Source: a virus
Virus record (IMG/VR): IMGVR_UViG_3300037193_001734
Coordinates: 1 to 21,058 of that record
DNA length: 21,058 bases
Strand: one strand, 5' to 3'
Of this stretch, positions 3,693 through 16,273 are shown piece by piece. Under the pieces are notes generated by a model. It was not told the origin of the DNA, made no database searches, and worked only from the letters and a program-made list of their open reading frames with translations. Positions within the stretch are counted from its first letter, which is position 1; each line of letters opens with the position of its first letter. Both the position numbers and the translations under genes were made by a program.

Positions 3693-3754
3693 CCCAGCTC
3701 TCCCTCGCCCTCCCGCTCCCCGACGCCCACACGCTCCCCAGAGGCCACCGATGA
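3689..3754 (+). CDS. Mini-ORF, 21 aa, possible translational coupler
   Basis: GTG at 3689 overlaps the upstream stop by 4 nt, and the TGA at 3752-3754 overlaps the methyltransferase ATG (ATGA). The frame thus bridges an otherwise 58-nt gap exactly. The peptide (VTQLSLALPLPDAH...) has no recognisable domain. Two more frames with the same arrangement occur at 5224 and 5932. It could be a leader that passes ribosomes to the next gene, or a chance open frame in GC-rich DNA. Confidence 0.35.
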   Translation: MTQLSLALPLPDAHTLPRGHR

Positions 3755-4776
3755 GCACGGCCACCTACCTCGTCGGCGACGTCTTCGACCGCCTCGCCGA
3801 GATGCCTGACGCGTCGGTCCACAGCGTCATCACCTCGCCGCCGTACTGGCGCAAGCGCCGGTACCTCCCCCTCGACCACCCCGACGCCGCCAAGGAGATC
3901 GGCCAGGAAGCATCCCCAGGCGAGTTCCTGGCGACGCTGCTGCGGCTCACCGACGAGCTGTGGCGGATCGTCGCCGACGACGGGACCATCTGGATCAACC
4001 TCGGTGACACCGCTTCGGGTAGCGGGGGAGCGGGCGGCGACTACGACGAGGACGGATGGCGTGCCGGCCAGAACCGCTACGCCGGCACCAACCGGGCCGT
4101 GCGCGACGCCAGCCCCGGCACGCCCTACGGCGGCAAGGACATGCCGATGCGCAAGTCGGTGTGCTGGATCCCCGAGCTGTTCGGCGCCTCCCTCGCCTAC
4201 GGGCGCAACCTCCTGACCGGAGAACCGTGCCGGCAGTGGATCACCCGCCCCTCGGTCACCTGGTGCAAGCCCGCACCGACCCCCGGCGAGATCATCGACA
4301 AGTTCCGTGAGGCCACCGAGCTGTTCGTGTGGGCGTCCAAGCAGCCCGCCTACTACTTCGACCTCGACGCCGTCAGGATCACCGACGGCCCGGGCGGCAA
4401 CCCCACACGGCGCTCATCGAGGAATCGCGGGGCGCCCGGCTACCACACCGGCGGCAACGGCGAGCTGGGCGTCCACGACAACCCCAAGGGAACCCCGCCG
4501 CTCACGTGGTGGGTGATCAACACCTCGGGCTACGAGGGCGCCCACTTCGCCACGTTTCCGCCCGAGCTGATCATCCGCCCCGTCCTCGCCTCCTGCCCGC
4601 CCGGCGGCACGATCCTCGACCCCTTCGGCGGCAGCGGCACCACCGCGGCGGTGGCCACCGGCCACGGCCGCAACTGCATCGCCATTGACATCGACGAACG
4701 CAACGCCGACCTCGCCCGCGAGCGCGTCGGCCTCTTTCTGACTGTGGAGGAGGGCACGAGTGCGCACCCTGCTTGA
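3751..4776 (+). CDS. DNA methyltransferase, SPPY type (N4-cytosine or N6-adenine), beta-class order, 341 aa
   Basis: ATG at 3751 has AGAGG a few bases upstream. The catalytic motif IV is TSPPYW at residues 28-33 and the S-adenosylmethionine motif I is DPFGGSGTT at 290-298, followed by an acidic strand (CIAIDIDE). Motif IV before motif I is the beta-class order. A Ser-Pro-Pro-Tyr tetrad is commonest in N4-cytosine enzymes but also occurs in N6-adenine enzymes, so the modified base is not settled. The region between (about 95-270), including a Gly-rich stretch, should hold target recognition. It acts on double-stranded DNA in the cytosol. No cognate restriction enzyme is adjacent, so it is probably an orphan phage enzyme protecting against host restriction or marking phage DNA. 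It overlaps the HNH gene by 17 nt. Confidence 0.88.
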   Translation: MSTATYLVGDVFDRLAEMPDASVHSVITSPPYWRKRRYLPLDHPDAAKEIGQEASPGEFLATLLRLTDELWRIVADDGTIWINLGDTASGSGGAGGDYDEDGWRAGQNRYAGTNRAVRDASPGTPYGGKDMPMRKSVCWIPELFGASLAYGRNLLTGEPCRQWITRPSVTWCKPAPTPGEIIDKFREATELFVWASKQPAYYFDLDAVRITDGPGGNPTRRSSRNRGAPGYHTGGNGELGVHDNPKGTPPLTWWVINTSGYEGAHFATFPPELIIRPVLASCPPGGTILDPFGGSGTTAAVATGHGRNCIAIDIDERNADLARERVGLFLTVEEGTSAHPA

Positions 4777-5227
4777 GCGCTTCGAGGCCAAGGTCCAGCG
4801 GACGGACGGCTGCTGGCTGTGGACCGCCAAGTTGAACAACCGCGGCTACGGGCTGTTCAACATCAACAAGAAGATGGTCGCCGCCCACCGGGTCTCTTAC
4901 GAGCTGTACGTCGGTCCGATCCCCGAGGGGCACGACATCGACCACGTGAAGTCCCGCGGCTGCACTGCCCGCCACTGCGTCAACCCGGACCACCTTGAGC
5001 CCGTGACCCATCGGGAGAACCTCTTGCGAGGGTCGGGCTTCGCCGCTGTCAACGCGGCGAAGACGCACTGCCCGCGTGGCCACGAGTACTCGCCCGAAAA
5101 CACCTACGTGAACCCGCACCCTCAGGGCGGTCGGATCTGCCGTATCTGCAAGCGCGAGGGCGACCGTAGGCGTGCGTCCGCCCGACGGTTCCTCACCGTC
5201 CACGAACCCGCGGTGGTCGCGTCGTGA
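4760..5227 (+). CDS. HNH endonuclease with C-terminal zinc-ribbon-like segment, 155 aa
   Basis: GTG at 4760 lies within the end of the methyltransferase gene and has GGAGGAGGG at 4746-4754. The HNH core spans residues about 43-90: Asp61-His62 (DIDHVKS), a Cys pair (GCTARHC), Asn75 and His78 (NPDHLEPV), and then RENLLRG, as in HNH nucleases of the HNH_3/homing type. The C-terminal part has HCPRGHEY and RICRICKRE (Cys104, His108, Cys127, Cys130), a second metal site often seen after HNH cores in phage free-standing endonucleases. It may be a selfish homing endonuclease inserted between two methyltransferases, or a nicking enzyme acting with them. Confidence 0.88.
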   Translation: MRTLLERFEAKVQRTDGCWLWTAKLNNRGYGLFNINKKMVAAHRVSYELYVGPIPEGHDIDHVKSRGCTARHCVNPDHLEPVTHRENLLRGSGFAAVNAAKTHCPRGHEYSPENTYVNPHPQGGRICRICKREGDRRRASARRFLTVHEPAVVAS

Positions 5228-5277
5228 GCCACTACCGGCCTGAGACCATCACCAACCGCCACGGGACGGCGACGTGA
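5224..5277 (+). CDS. Mini-ORF, 17 aa, possible translational coupler
   Basis: GTG at 5224 overlaps the HNH stop (GTGA), and its own TGA at 5275-5277 overlaps the GTG start of the next methyltransferase (GTGA at 5274). It fills the whole 46-nt gap. The 17-residue peptide (VSHYRPETITNRHGTAT) has no recognisable feature. Support comes only from the overlap at both ends, repeated at two other junctions. Confidence 0.35.
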   Translation: MSHYRPETITNRHGTAT

Positions 5278-5939
5278 CCCCCTACTTCGACGACGGGACC
5301 GTCCAACTGTTCCACGGCGACTGCCGAGAGATCCTGCCCCAGCTCGGCCTCAACGACCTGCAGTGCGCCCTGGCGTTCGACCCGCCCTACGGGGCGAGCT
5401 ACGAGACCAACCGGACCCGCCTGGCCGGCAACGCCCGCACGATCGCCAACGACCACGACACCACCGTCCGCGACGCCGTCCTCGACTGGTGGGCCGGTCG
5501 TGGCCCAGCCCTCGTGTTCGGCACCTGGAAGCGTCCTCGACCAGAGGCCACGAAGGGCGTGCTCATCTGGGACAAGGGCGGTGCCCTCGGCATGGGCGAC
5601 CTGTCGTTGCCGTGGAAGTTCGACCACGAAGAGATCTACGTCATCGGCGGACCGTTCGCCGGTCGCCGCGACTGCGGATCGGTGATCCGCCATCCCCCCG
5701 TCCAAGCCGTCGGCCGGGCACACCCCAACGAGAAGCCCGTCGGACTCATGTCGAAGCTCCTCGCCAAGCTCCCCCCGGTCCCCGTGATCGACCCGTGCTG
5801 CGGTGTCGGCGCGACGCTCGTCGCCGCCAAATCCCACGGGCGCCCGGCGCTCGGCATCGAACTGGATGAGCGCTACCTAGAGGTCACCGCCAGCCGGCTC
5901 GCCCAAGGCGCCCTCACGTTCGGAGCGCCCCGTGCCTGA
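5274..5939 (+). CDS. DNA adenine-N6 methyltransferase, DPPY type, beta-class order, 221 aa
   Basis: GTG at 5274 was chosen because coding similarity begins at once (TPYFDDGTVQLFHGDC). Motif IV is DPPYG at residues 36-40, after a typical HGDCREIL strand. An HPNEKPVGLM motif precedes motif I, DPCCGVGATL, at residue 173 onwards, followed by GIELDERYLE. Asp-Pro-Pro-Tyr and the order IV-then-I identify a beta-class N6-adenine methyltransferase. At 221 aa it is short, and the target-recognition part is limited to about residues 45-150. No restriction partner is visible. It is one of two modification enzymes within 1.6 kb, so together they could modify two sequence contexts on phage DNA. Confidence 0.88.
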   Translation: MTPYFDDGTVQLFHGDCREILPQLGLNDLQCALAFDPPYGASYETNRTRLAGNARTIANDHDTTVRDAVLDWWAGRGPALVFGTWKRPRPEATKGVLIWDKGGALGMGDLSLPWKFDHEEIYVIGGPFAGRRDCGSVIRHPPVQAVGRAHPNEKPVGLMSKLLAKLPPVPVIDPCCGVGATLVAAKSHGRPALGIELDERYLEVTASRLAQGALTFGAPRA

Positions 5940-5979
5940 GCCCGTCTACCGCCTCGGCCACGAGCGGGGGCGCAGCTGA
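5932..5979 (+). CDS. Mini-ORF, 15 aa, possible translational coupler
   Basis: GTG at 5932 starts inside the end of the adenine methyltransferase gene, and the TGA at 5977-5979 overlaps the ATG of the next gene as TGATG. The peptide (VPEPVYRLGHERGRS) is basic and featureless. It is the third such frame in this operon and covers a 39-nt gap. Confidence 0.3.
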   Translation: MPEPVYRLGHERGRS

Positions 5980-6341
5980 TGCCGATCCGCCCCGAGAACC
6001 GCGACCGCTACCCGGCCAACTGGAAGACGATCAGCGACGACATCCGCTTCGGCCGCGCCGACTCGCGCTGCGAATGCCTCGGCGAATGCGGGCGCAACAC
6101 CCACATCGGCCGGTGCCCCAACACCCACAACGGCCAGGCCTACGGCACCGGTTCGCGGGTGATCCTCACCGTCGCCCACCTCGACCACACCCCCGAGAAC
6201 TGCGACCCCGAGAACCTCCGCGCCATGTGCCAGGGCTGCCACCTCCACTACGACCGCGACCACCACGCCCGCACCGCCGCAGCCACCCGCCAGCGCGAGC
6301 GCACCGCCGGCATGGACCCCCTGTTCGAGGCCATCCCGTGA
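5979..6341 (+). CDS. HNH-type nuclease / treble-clef zinc protein, 120 aa
   Basis: ATG at 5979 overlaps the mini-ORF stop. Residues 31-46 carry a Cys cluster (RCECLGECG and later GRCPN). An HNH-like core follows: AHLDHTPENC with His67, Asp69 and His70, then ENLRAMCQGCH with Cys84, Cys87 and His88, and a YDRDHHA tail. This is the layout of a small HNH/treble-clef protein family common in actinobacteriophages. The usual Asn of the motif may be that of ENLRAM at residue 79. It is likely a DNA nicking or cleaving enzyme. Its position directly behind two methyltransferases suggests a shared DNA-modification role, but substrate specificity is unknown. Confidence 0.8.
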   Translation: MPIRPENRDRYPANWKTISDDIRFGRADSRCECLGECGRNTHIGRCPNTHNGQAYGTGSRVILTVAHLDHTPENCDPENLRAMCQGCHLHYDRDHHARTAAATRQRERTAGMDPLFEAIP

Positions 6342-6754
6342 GCGACGTTATCCACAGCCTTGTCCGTGGTGCGGGCGGCCCGGATCCGGTGTTCCCATCC
6401 AGCGGTGACCAGAGCACCCTCCTGGAAGTGATGCGCACCCTGAAGGCCGAAGCGCTCGCCGAGTCCCACCGGCTCCGGGCCGAAGCCCGAGCGCAGATCC
6501 CGACCCCACCGCCCCAGCCGGTCACCGGCTGGACCACCACAGCCACATGCCCCAACTGCGGCGGGCACCTCGAACACATCACCTCCGGTCGCCCCGGGCC
6601 CGACACCCGTGCCATCGCCGGCTGCCCCGGCTGCGGCCGCCGCTGGTCGATCACCGCGTCGATCCGGGACGCAACCGCCGACCTCGGCCGCCACCCCCGC
6701 CCCAAACCCCACCCCGTCGGCTGCAGATGCGCCGCCCACCGGGGTGCAGCGTGA
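6338..6754 (+). CDS. Zinc-ribbon protein of unknown function, 138 aa
   Basis: GTG at 6338 overlaps the preceding stop. The N-terminal half contains a predicted helix (LLEVMRTLKAEALAESHRLRAEARAQ) and a Pro-rich linker. Then comes a zinc ribbon with TCPNCGGH and, about 30 residues later, GCPGCGRRW, and the C-terminus has a further CRCAAH knuckle. The helix-linker-ribbon layout suggests a DNA- or protein-binding adaptor. It opens a run of three consecutive small Cys-pair proteins. No enzyme motif is visible. Confidence 0.65.
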   Translation: MSDVIHSLVRGAGGPDPVFPSSGDQSTLLEVMRTLKAEALAESHRLRAEARAQIPTPPPQPVTGWTTTATCPNCGGHLEHITSGRPGPDTRAIAGCPGCGRRWSITASIRDATADLGRHPRPKPHPVGCRCAAHRGAA

Positions 6755-7109: not shown

Positions 7110-7637
7110 GTGCCGCAGTTCCAGGCACGCCCTACGAACTATCGGGGCATCCAGATGCGTAGCAGGCTCGAGGCCGGCTACGCCGCCTGGCTCGACCAGT
7201 GGGGCTTCCACTGGGAGTACGAGCCCCAAGCCTTCGCCAGTCCCAGCGGCCAGTACCTGCCCGACTTCCTCCTCAAGCAGGTGCCAGCGGCCACCGGCGA
7301 TGGCAAGGTCCGAACGACCGACGTGTACGTCGAGGTCAAGCCCTCCAGCAGGACCGGCGACCTCGACGCCCTTGGCAAGCGAATGGCGATCATCACAGAG
7401 TCACACCGGGATGCGACCCTGCTCCTCGAAACGCCGGGCCAGGCACCTAGGGAGACCTTCGTGTTGCTGTACCCCGAGCCAAGAGTGTGCTGGCAGGAGT
7501 GCGCCTGGACCTACAACGTGGCAGGTCAGAACGACCCCCACGGCCGGGAGTCCGGCAGCGAGTACCTCGCCCTCGCCTGGACCATCGAGCGCGACCACCA
7601 GCCCTGGCCGCACGGCTACTGGAACGGACCCGCCTGA
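7110..7637 (+). CDS. PD-(D/E)XK-fold endonuclease, TnsA-N-terminal-like, 175 aa
   Basis: GTG at 7110 directly follows the upstream TAG and has GAGGAGG about 8 nt upstream. The nuclease core is clear: an N-terminal helix with Glu21 (MRSRLEAGYAAWLD), the WEYEP strand, Asp52 in YLPDFLL, and Glu75-Val-Lys77 in YVEVKPSS. This order matches TnsA-type and very-short-patch-like endonucleases, in which Glu, Asp and the Glu-x-Lys bind metal and cut DNA. The C-terminal half has no recognisable second domain. Possible roles are host-DNA degradation, processing of phage DNA replication intermediates, or restriction together with the nearby methyltransferases. It lies next to the replication initiator, which favours DNA metabolism. 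Confidence 0.8.
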   Translation: MPQFQARPTNYRGIQMRSRLEAGYAAWLDQWGFHWEYEPQAFASPSGQYLPDFLLKQVPAATGDGKVRTTDVYVEVKPSSRTGDLDALGKRMAIITESHRDATLLLETPGQAPRETFVLLYPEPRVCWQECAWTYNVAGQNDPHGRESGSEYLALAWTIERDHQPWPHGYWNGPA

Positions 7638-8494
7638 TGGCCTGGGTCTACCTCGACGACCAGTTCCCCGACCACCCCAAGGTCGTCGCCGCCGGCGACG
7701 CAGCCGCCTGGATGTTCGTCTGCGGGCTCGCCTACTGCAAGCGCTACGCCACCGGCGGGCGCATCCCCAAGGGCCAGGTGGCAAAGCTGACCACGAGCCG
7801 CTCGCCGGCGAAGCTCGCCAAGGCTCTCGTGTCGGTGGTCCTGTGGGAGGACGCCGGAGCGGACTACGTCGTCCACGACTACGACGACTGGAACAAGCCC
7901 CAGGCGTCGCGCACCGAGTCCGCTCGGAAGGCGGCCCGTGCCCGCTGGGGAGCACCCAAGGACGATGCGAATGCACATGCGGACGCATTGCCCGGCGCAT
8001 CCGAAACGCACAGCGAACGCAATGCGGAGGGCGATGCCTCAACATGCCCACCACCCACTCCCTCTGTAGTTACGTCTCCTGACAACTCTCGTCGTCTTGG
8101 TGGCGACGCATCCGACGACGACGACCGAATTCGTCAAGCCGTCACCCTCCTGGCCAGGGCCGACCTGGCGAAACGCCAGGTCGCGCCAGGCGTCGAGCCG
8201 ATCGGCGACCCCGACGCCTGGCTGCGAGAAGCCATCACCCGGCGATCCGAACGTGACACGTCTCGGCTGATCGAACTCGTTGCCTTCGACCCGGATGCCA
8301 CGCCGGAGCAGCTCGTCGAGGCGCTCGACCCGCCCGTCCAACCCGAGCCGCTCGCTGACGCCGCCCGCCCTTGGCCGCCGCTGCACGTCGCCGACTTCGA
8401 AGACAACGAGCGGTTCCAGCCCCCGCCACCCGAGGTTCTCGCTGCCGCCAGACGTGCAGCCCGCCACCCCCTCGCCCGAGAGGAACCCGCATGA
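7637..8494 (+). CDS. Probable phage replication initiation protein with N-terminal winged-helix-like domain, 285 aa
   Basis: ATG at 7637 overlaps the preceding stop as TGATG. The N-terminal ~85 residues (MAWVYLDDQFPDHPKV, AAAWMFVCGLAYC, GRIPKGQVAKLT and VHDYDDWNKPQ) look like the winged-helix domain of DnaD/lambda-O-type replication initiators of Gram-positive phages. The HDYDDWN element followed by a basic helix (ESARKAARARWG) is typical of that group. A long low-complexity acidic and polar linker follows (about 110-165), and a C-terminal helical region (about 166-225) could contact a helicase or loader. The DNA encoding the linker holds a cluster of short repeats that may be the phage origin (separate entry). 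Assignment is by pattern. A transcription regulator is the main alternative. Confidence 0.65.
   Translation: MAWVYLDDQFPDHPKVVAAGDAAAWMFVCGLAYCKRYATGGRIPKGQVAKLTTSRSPAKLAKALVSVVLWEDAGADYVVHDYDDWNKPQASRTESARKAARARWGAPKDDANAHADALPGASETHSERNAEGDASTCPPPTPSVVTSPDNSRRLGGDASDDDDRIRQAVTLLARADLAKRQVAPGVEPIGDPDAWLREAITRRSERDTSRLIELVAFDPDATPEQLVEALDPPVQPEPLADAARPWPPLHVADFEDNERFQPPPPEVLAAARRAARHPLAREEPA
7965..8111 (+). repeat. Cluster of ATGC/GCAT motifs inside the initiator gene, candidate replication origin iterons
   Basis: ATGC or its complement GCAT occurs at 7965, 7971, 7977, 7985, 7997, 8022, 8034 and 8044, with a ninth copy at 8108. The first three are spaced exactly 6 bp. ATGCG at 7977-7981 and CGCAT at 7984-7988 form an inverted repeat, and CGCA-A-TGCG at 8018-8026 forms another. 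The 40 bp at 8061-8100 are about 48% A+T, much richer than the surroundings. Iterons followed by an AT-rich stretch inside the initiator gene is the lambda-O arrangement. The repeats could instead be a by-product of an Ala-rich (x-Ala) coding linker. Confidence 0.45.
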
Positions 8495-9462: not shown

Positions 9463-9732
9463 GTGAGAGCCACACCCGTCGCGCGGCAGGTGATCATCGA
9501 CAGCCACGGTGTCACGATCACCACGCCCCGCTACCGCTGGGACTACCGCCGACCTGGCGCATGGCTCCCGCTCTCGATGTGTGACCACGGTGAGCCAGTG
9601 TTCCAAGCGGCCGTGGATCGCCTTTGGATGGCACAGGGCCCACGCCTCAAGACGGACACGTGGCGAGGCTGGTGGGGAACCCTGCAGCGCACTGAAGCCA
9701 AGGACCCCGAGGTAGACCTCACCCCGGACTGA
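9382..9732 (+). CDS. Hypothetical protein, 116 aa (start uncertain)
   Basis: The longest frame begins with GTG at 9382, but no ribosome binding site precedes it and the first ~27 codons use more A/T third bases than the rest, so the in-frame GTG at 9463 (89 aa, beginning VRATPVARQVI) may be the true start. The conserved-looking core alternates strands and aromatic residues (VIIDSHGVTITTPRYRWDYR, then PGAWLPLSMCDHG) and ends with a Trp-rich helix (DTWRGWWGTLQ). The family is not recognised. The end overlaps the HNH gene start (TGATG at 9730). Confidence 0.6.
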   Translation: MSPVAVALAAPSELVRTGRSAESWTQAVRATPVARQVIIDSHGVTITTPRYRWDYRRPGAWLPLSMCDHGEPVFQAAVDRLWMAQGPRLKTDTWRGWWGTLQRTEAKDPEVDLTPD

Positions 9733-10184
9733 TGTCCCCCCGTCGCGCCCCCTCCGTCTGCCCCACCTCTGGGTGCCCAGAGCTGACCGAGGGGGGAGCG
9801 TGCGAGACGTGCAGGCGTGAACGCAAGCGCAACCAGGCCAGACAGCGCAGGGCAGCCGGAGACCCGGCCATGTCGGTGTACACCACCGACCAGTGGCGCG
9901 CCCGGCGCCGTGCCTTCCTCCGCACCCACCCAACCTGCGTCGACTGCGGAGCACCAGCAACCGAGCCCGACCACGTCCCACCCCGAGCCCTCCTCGCAGC
10001 CCTCGGCATCCACGACCCAGACGCCGACCAGTGGCTACGCCCACGCTGTGGGTCGTGTCACGCACGCAAGACACGGCTCATCGACATGCCGCTGCTCCAG
10101 CGCTGGCGCGCAGGCGAGGACGCACGAACACTGTGCGAGCAGGCGATGACCACGGAGGGTGGGGGGGACCAACTAGGGGCCTGA
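9732..10184 (+). CDS. HNH endonuclease, terminase-associated type, 150 aa
   Basis: ATG at 9732 overlaps the preceding stop. A Cys-rich N-terminus (Cys10, Cys15, Cys24, Cys27) is followed by a basic helix (RRERKRNQARQRRAA). The HNH core follows: CVDCGAP (Cys69, Cys72), EPDHVPP (Asp80-His81), and WLRPRCGSCHARKT (Cys106, Cys109, His110). This is the layout of phage HNH nucleases encoded beside the terminase. In phages such as HK97 these cooperate with the terminase and portal in cos cleavage and DNA packaging. The position one gene upstream of the small terminase supports that role. The canonical central Asn is not obvious. Confidence 0.88.
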   Translation: MSPRRAPSVCPTSGCPELTEGGACETCRRERKRNQARQRRAAGDPAMSVYTTDQWRARRRAFLRTHPTCVDCGAPATEPDHVPPRALLAALGIHDPDADQWLRPRCGSCHARKTRLIDMPLLQRWRAGEDARTLCEQAMTTEGGGDQLGA

Positions 10185-13839: not shown

Positions 13840-14566
13840 CACGACTCGACTGCACCTTGCGTATCGAGCCCGCCTCCTTCGGCTACGCAACGTCACAGTC
13901 GCCCGGGCGCTGCAAGCCGACGACCCCGACGCCGCCGTGCAGCTTCTACTCGAAGCTCAGCGCCAGGCGGTCGGCAACGCGGACGCGTACCTGTCCCTCG
14001 AAGCCGGTCTGGCCACGGACTCCGACACGGAGCCCTGGGGTGTTGATGCCGACCAGTTGATCGGTGTCGCTGCGAGACGAGGGCGCCCGCTCGAGGACGT
14101 GTACGGCGCAAACTGGGCCGCCATGGCAGGGTCGTTCGCCGGGCGCATCACCCGCGAGGTCAACACCGACCTGACGCTCGCCGACCGTGCCGCGACGTTC
14201 GTGCACACCGATGGCGACTCGCGGATCATCGGCTCCCGCCGAGTCCTCGGCTCGGGACCGAACTGCGGACTGTGCGTCGCCGCGGCGACGCACCGCTACC
14301 ACAAGCATGACCTGCGTCCCATCCACCACCACTGCGGGTGCTCGACTCAGCCGATCTACTCCGACATGGACGCCTCCGGCTGGTCGAAACCCACCAACGA
14401 CGCGCTCACCGCGCTCTACAGGCGTGCAGGCAGCACGACCGGCTCCGATCTATCGCGGATCGTGGTCGACGAAGCCGACCTGCCCCCTGGCGTGAAGCCG
14501 GGATCCCTACCGGTCGTCGAGGTCGTGGACAGTCCTGAGCTGGGCCCGACCCTCGTCGCCGCTTGA
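13832..14566 (+). CDS. MuF-like minor capsid protein, 244 aa
   Basis: GTG at 13832 lies within the end of the portal gene. The N-terminal ~110 residues are helical (LHLAYRARLLRLRN and later SFAGRITREVNTDLTL). The C-terminal region has the Cys/His pattern of MuF-like head proteins: Cys145-x-x-Cys148 (CGLC), then DLRPIHHHCGC with His165-167, Cys168 and Cys170. Proteins of this family sit inside the head near the portal and are sometimes ejected or fused to toxin domains. Here no toxin domain follows the MuF core; the last ~65 residues are Pro/Asp-rich. The next start lies 47 nt downstream. Confidence 0.85.
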   Translation: MPDTTRLHLAYRARLLRLRNVTVARALQADDPDAAVQLLLEAQRQAVGNADAYLSLEAGLATDSDTEPWGVDADQLIGVAARRGRPLEDVYGANWAAMAGSFAGRITREVNTDLTLADRAATFVHTDGDSRIIGSRRVLGSGPNCGLCVAAATHRYHKHDLRPIHHHCGCSTQPIYSDMDASGWSKPTNDALTALYRRAGSTTGSDLSRIVVDEADLPPGVKPGSLPVVEVVDSPELGPTLVAA

Positions 14567-16246: not shown

Positions 16247-16273
16247 GACCCGGCCGGCTGGACCGGCCGGGTC
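16247..16273 (+). terminator. Perfect 11-bp hairpin after the capsid gene, probable terminator
   Basis: GACCCGGCCGG at 16247-16257 pairs perfectly with CCGGCCGGGTC at 16263-16273 around a 5-nt loop (CTGGA). It starts 8 nt after the capsid stop. The following bases (ACCCCTTCTCC) are pyrimidine-rich but not a T-run, so it may terminate only partly or protect the 3' end of the capsid mRNA. Confidence 0.65.

Follow-up and report, generated by a model that had tools for sequence, protein, structure and literature searches.

An ATGC repeat cluster inside a phage replication initiator gene is a probable origin of replication

The Streptomyces linear plasmid pSLA2 has a phage-like origin of replication within a gene. 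In the lambda-type phages, iterons bound by the initiator and an AT-rich tract are found in the middle of gene O (PMC7466680). SPP1 encodes the replisome organizer gp38, and its oriL, with repeats and an AT-rich unwinding element, is located inside gene 38 (PMC6316719). In the initiator Rep of pSK41 an N-terminal winged helix and a C-terminal domain are joined by an origin-encoded linker, which can be deleted if an origin is supplied (PMC5703833). Given the parallels with lambda O, SPP1 gp38, and pSK41 Rep, the kind of origin that we propose here is a known one. For the RepA mycobacteriophages an origin within repA or upstream of it was suggested by Wetzel et al., with no repeats seen in the region examined (PMC7157519), and the origins of RepA-like actinobacteriophages seem to be unmapped in the papers searched.

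The DNA analysed here (the window) is a viral fragment of 21,058 bases from IMG/VR, an incomplete record with ~70% G+C. Its gene at 7637..8494 (+ strand, ATG at 7637, 285 amino acids) encodes, as judged from its profile matches, a phage replication initiation protein. It matches PHROG 2447 and PHROG 3926, both replication initiation proteins, with E-values of 2.1e-21 and 2.6e-21 over residues 1-156 and 1-139, respectively. The first ~100-135 residues have matches in 58 phage records with 29-33% identity, several of which are labelled as replication initiation protein or RepA-like replication initiator. The Pfam search of the protein matched no family; in particular, RepA_N is matched neither by the window protein nor by any member of the A2 set of relatives, and Phage_rep_org_N (PF09681) is not matched by the window protein and weakly by one of 11 relatives (E 0.0046). 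In Microbacterium phage Dropshot the relative of the initiator precedes genes for a helicase loader and for a DnaB-like helicase; in the window, none of the scanned genes was recognised as that of a helicase. The initiator gene is surrounded by HNH endonuclease genes (4760-5227, 5979-6341, and 9732-10184), and two adjacent DNA methyltransferase genes (PHROG 67) are located at 3751-4776 and 5274-5939.

The AlphaFold2 model of the initiator, built from 37 aligned sequences, exceeds a pLDDT of 90 between about residues 11 and 80, with helices and a two-strand wing; the winged helix is confident to about residue 85 and the helices to about residue 113. Together with the alignment to RepA_N N-terminal domains, this places the predicted winged-helix DNA-binding domain at 7637..7951 (+ strand, residues 1-105). 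The linker, ~110-157, is modelled with low confidence (pLDDT below 50 at 120-134 and 141-153), and confident helices follow from residue 158 to about 230 within the C-terminal region (8108..8491, + strand, residues 158-285). VIA-align against the RepA_N-type N-terminal domains 4pql, 4pt7, and 5kbj gives Z of 7.1-7.3 and rmsd of 2.8-2.9 over 79-81 residues, and unrelated winged-helix chains score equally. The PDB sequence search with the initiator gave nothing credible, and in the PDB Foldseek found no model with E<=0.001, the closer alignment reflecting the common winged-helix fold only; against viral models Foldseek matched replisome organizers, DUF1376, and phage HTH proteins.

The DNA that encodes the linker contains eight ATGC/GCAT sites within 83 bp (7965..8047, in both orientations) and an outlying ninth, GCAT at 8108..8111. 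ATGC is found at 7965, 7971, 7977, 8022, 8034, and 8044, and GCAT at 7985, 7997, and 8108, so that the coordinates of the original prediction are all correct, as are its two inverted pairs, ATGCG-GA-CGCAT at 7977-7988 and CGCA-A-TGCG at 8018-8026. The eight sites are irregularly spaced, by 6, 6, 8, 12, 25, 12, and 10 bp. The whole window has 93 ATGC sites, when 95 are expected; hence, ATGC is not common in it and the cluster alone is unusual. Among the 83-bp clusters of all tetramers in the window it ranks first (Poisson, window-corrected ~1e-4, the next best being 4.5e-3), and eight sites are attained in none of 2000 dinucleotide shuffles of the 260-bp stretch behind the domain. Overlooked before were the longer core GCATTGC at 7985..7991, which occurs also in Arthrobacter phage Sonali and Mycobacterium phage Piper2020, its inverse GCAATGC at 8019..8025, and a C-rich tract and a hairpin farther downstream.

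The first three sites all read xAT-GCx, that is x-Ala, and the original prediction warned that the x-Ala dipeptides of the linker could create the repeats. With the linker recoded synonymously at the codon usage of the window, the mean number of sites is 0.67 and the maximum is 5 in 20,000 trials. When codons are permuted within the whole gene, or synonymous versions of the gene are made, 0 of 5000 reach eight within 83 bp. Permutation limited to the own codons of the linker gives P = 0.08, being a weaker control, since its null retains the unusual codon choice, itself part of the signal; some of the signal thus comes from the use of rare codons (GCA, AAT, GAT, and CAT). The codon phases of the nine sites are 1,1,1,0,0,1,1,2,0, so all three phases and both orientations are represented. 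With the recoding mean so low and three phases in use, the peptide does not explain the cluster.

Relatives of the initiator were gathered by profile from IMG/VR and GTDB genomes (searches A1 and A2) and reduced to 110 distinct ones; a search of viral contigs that used the window protein as its only query yielded none, and the plasmid search found two weak ones. The decisive evidence comes from four of them (L016, L019, L022, and L027), with 44-49% domain identity to the window, which encode the DNA-binding domain only (115-120 amino acids). In these, a stretch of ~70 bp that lies at the stop codon or directly behind it contains 8-9 ATGC/GCAT sites (shuffle P of 0.0005 or less). The DNA there is essentially noncoding; in L019 some of the cluster still falls within the last part of the reading frame. 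The ATGC cluster of Arthrobacter phage Sonali (L004) is at the equivalent place (P<=0.001), and in all five the cluster, at the position that matches that in the window, is mostly noncoding. Since the cluster persists in the essentially noncoding DNA of the four relatives, the peptide does not explain it. Sonali also has GCATTGC/GCAATGC repeats past the annotated stop, a core of which the window contains two copies. In Piper2020 three AGCAATGC repeats are present; its plain ATGC cluster, taken by itself, does not reach significance (P 0.2). In the alignment of the four relatives the number and spacing of the repeats vary; they are followed by C-rich repeats, CCCTNTACCCCTNCCC, and then by an AT-rich tract of 58-64% A+T with the nearly invariant GACAATTACTTACATCNGTTAATTACTTTCAGTTGGGG, after which comes a DnaA box, TGTGGATAA or TGTGGACAA. 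The conserved AT-rich word ACAATTACTTACATC, when searched for in viral contigs, matched 88 stretches, among them the contigs of these four relatives (there L176, L188, L209, and L234).

We also looked for relatives that keep the Ala-rich peptide and lose the ATGC motifs, which by the original prediction would speak against an origin, and observed none. Two relatives that share the C-terminal region of the window protein (L017 and L042, 34-37% identity there) keep both flanking domains, and their linker peptide is replaced along with the type of repeat, the repeats being of the CGAA and GTGAC types instead of ATGC and the peptides unrelated. As judged from these comparisons, the ATGC cluster is a genuine element that selection maintains as DNA.

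Across the 110 relatives short repeats, direct and inverted, are densest 60-90 bp past the winged-helix domain, with 38 pairs per 150 bp versus 9 in shuffles and mostly about 8-16 elsewhere. In the 88 relatives that are coding through the region, out-of-frame repeats number 18.1 versus 5.8 under synonymous recoding, and inverted repeats 14.2 versus 6.9. Out-of-frame repeats cannot stem from a repeated peptide. In 18 relatives with an early stop of the reading frame, the first 150 bp after the stop contain 28 repeat pairs versus 12.6 farther on (P = 0.0009). The cores are specific to clades (GTTAC, GTGAC, CGAAC, AGACG/GTCTAC, GGAATCC, TGTCCC, TTGCCA, TTGCTT, and others); the choice of clade motifs was exploratory, and some relatives lack clear repeats. 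Shared cores track domain identity only above about 70%, so a recognition code is not readable from them. In three relatives an HNH endonuclease-like sequence (CxxC and HH pattern, by eye) is fused to the winged-helix domain (L018 491-985, L035 2501-2998, and L082 2501-3718), with the junction where the repeats usually lie.

In 86 of the 110 relatives the repeats are followed by a CCCnn/CCCnnn tandem, compared with 7 for first-order shuffles, 3 for the opposite strand, and 9 and 10 for the adjacent 340-bp stretches. The tandem is read in all three frames and is present also in relatives of 45-48% G+C; among the coding relatives it is found in 70 of 82, versus 30 after synonymous recoding, and in four complete phages the tandem after the repeats is the longest genome-wide. 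Its frequency, also at low G+C, suggests that the tandem is an origin component beyond the iterons and the AT-rich element. Perfect hairpins with a stem of at least 9 bp occur in the stretch in 31 of 82 coding relatives (2.3 expected under synonymous recoding), versus 4 of 107 for the 339 bp that follow, and some of them are made by iteron pairs. Exact DnaA boxes are rare around the 110 relatives; 15 of 17 lie 0-300 bp after the domain, several coming from closely related contigs. As the relatives are not independent of one another, such counts characterise the family and are not strict probabilities. Two relatives that have the winged-helix domain alone (L063 and L088) contain three copies each of the DnaA box-like TATCCACA, 5 to 189 bp after the domain. 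In noncoding versions of the region a run of a 4- or 6-bp unit (ACAG, ACGT, ACGG, or CCGTAC) follows the iterons and ends in a TTACGTA-like word (L004 ~1945-1975, L006 ~1910-1940, L045 ~1100-1140, and L005 ~1955-1985), possibly another origin element.

We lean slightly towards a joint reading in which these phages share an origin module, located in the initiator linker or just after a shortened initiator. The module would begin with iterons whose core depends on the clade, continue with a strand-specific C-rich tandem, and close with either a perfect hairpin or an AT-rich tract that has a DnaA box. The tandem would have a period of 5 or 6, as in (CCCGA)n, (CCCGT)n, (CCCAT)n, and (CCCAAT)n, with the other strand potentially forming G-quadruplexes, and common peptides of the linker, for example TRPDPTRP, PSRPVPSRP, SHPIPS, and SQSQSQ, would arise as by-products of origin DNA, translated in any frame. 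We found no description of the shared C-rich and hairpin module in the open-licence literature searched, most subscription journals being outside its scope; as far as these papers show, the short clade-specific cores, the C-rich tandem with the hairpin, and the shift between coding and noncoding DNA are undescribed.

In the window the ATGC cluster is followed by the C-rich tract CCCACCACCCACTCCC (8047..8062, + strand), an irregular counterpart of the CCCnn tandem of the relatives; a tandem in the strict sense is absent there. Next is the least G+C-rich stretch beside the repeats, 8061..8100, a candidate unwinding region, with 47% A+T, in line with the about 48% noted before. The repeats correspond to codons 110-137, and the C-rich tract and the A+T stretch reach codon 155, all inside the linker predicted to be disordered. 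The perfect hairpin CGACCTGGCGAAACGCCAGGTCG (8161..8183, 10-bp stem) is one of four in the window with a stem of at least 9 bp. Two others, with stems in the range of 9-11 bp, are located outside this region at 14272-14293 and 16247-16273, the latter in an intergenic gap, where it may be terminator-like. No DnaA box is found within 1.2 kb of the cluster. The nearest exact one, TTATCCACA at 6348-6356, lies 1.6 kb upstream of the repeats, just past the HNH gene 5979-6341; such a word is rare in sequence as G+C-rich as the window. The window appears from its sequence to be a somewhat degenerate member of the wider layout, with iterons, an irregular C-rich tract, an A+T stretch, and a hairpin. The cumulative GC skew of the incomplete 21-kb record turns from falling to rising near 10,100 and not at 8000, just before the terminase gene, with the main genes on both sides on the + strand. 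The skew, proposed earlier as a check, proved uninformative, as in the window and four complete relatives the extremes are off the predicted origins.

We suggest, with a probability of roughly 85%, that the ATGC sites are iterons to which the winged-helix domain of the gene's own product binds and that the region from 7965 to about 8183 is the phage origin. Counting against this reading are the irregular spacing of the sites, the lack of a DnaA box nearby and of a strict tandem, the modest A+T content of 8061-8100, the place where the skew turns, the failure to recognise a helicase among the scanned genes, and the P of 0.08 in the own-codon permutation. The candidate origin proposed originally inside the initiator gene is supported: as in known in-gene iteron origins, the array is placed between the winged-helix domain and the helical C-terminal region, and its repeats appear to be selected as DNA. 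Since distant relatives keep like repeats in place even where the DNA is noncoding, the cluster is very probably DNA bound by the initiator at an origin.

The origin might work as follows. Several initiator molecules would occupy the ATGC sites, bending or wrapping the DNA. The less stable neighbour at 8061-8100, with the C-rich tract in between, would then open. The C-terminal region would recruit the replicative helicase, its loader, or primase, and the hairpin may be exposed as a single strand and serve loading or priming. The disordered linker would be mainly a translation of the origin DNA.

Repeats bound by an initiator often double for autoregulation, and a repeat array by itself does not prove origin activity. 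The protein could therefore bind its own gene mainly to repress it, with replication starting elsewhere. We consider this unlikely: the array lies about 330 bp into the gene or just past it rather than at a promoter, and in the relatives it is accompanied by the C-rich tandem, hairpin, AT-rich tract, and DnaA boxes, a known origin layout. Still less probable is another cis-acting site, for packaging (pac/cos) or partition (parS-like). Such sites are also marked by repeat arrays, and the gene of the terminase large subunit starts 2.6 kb downstream; however, in the complete phages Dropshot, B22, Jinkies, and Darolandstone the array is part of the replication module and the terminase gene is at least several kb away, and in the 110 relatives it follows the initiator DNA-binding domain. 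Least tenable, and already contradicted, is the view that the Ala-rich linker peptide yields the repeats and the DNA has no role, which has on its side the xAT-GCx reading of the first sites and the own-codon permutation, and against it the failure of synonymous recoding to give eight sites, the three codon phases, the clusters in essentially noncoding DNA, and the equal repeat density of relatives with unrelated linker peptides.

If the ATGC cluster and its neighbours are the origin, a rule follows that needs only the sequence: in many actinobacterial-type phages, whose origins are apparently unmapped, the origin would be found directly after the initiator winged-helix domain. The origin reading also predicts the binding site of each initiator and would account for the unusual linkers rich in proline and Asn-Ala, which would be origin DNA in translation. 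Last, such origins could supply small replicons for laboratory actinobacteria.

We note that the proposed origin has its layout in common with several described systems. Among the closest are the RepA-like and replication initiation proteins of Gordonia, Microbacterium, Arthrobacter, Propionibacterium, and Streptomyces phages, which have a homologous N-terminal domain; a repeat array directly follows it, as in the window, and the iteron core differs between clades. Lambda O with ori-lambda and the relatives in Stx phages have, as proposed for the window, the origin in the middle of the initiator gene; their iterons are followed by an AT-rich tract, for which the window has a candidate stretch. 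The lambda iterons are long, regular units, and ori-lambda has a palindrome beyond the AT-rich tract. In contrast, the iteron core of the window is 4 to 7 bp, the window is G+C rich, and the C-rich tandem is typical of its relatives. In SPP1 gp38 and oriL the binding repeats lie in the protein's own gene, as proposed here; unlike the window layout, SPP1 has a second origin, oriR. The pSK41-type RepA_N initiators have the three-part layout in common with the window initiator. However, the window protein has no Pfam RepA_N match and belongs to actinobacterial-type phages, not to Firmicutes plasmids, and a Z of about 7 over the common winged-helix fold is no proof of kinship with RepA_N.
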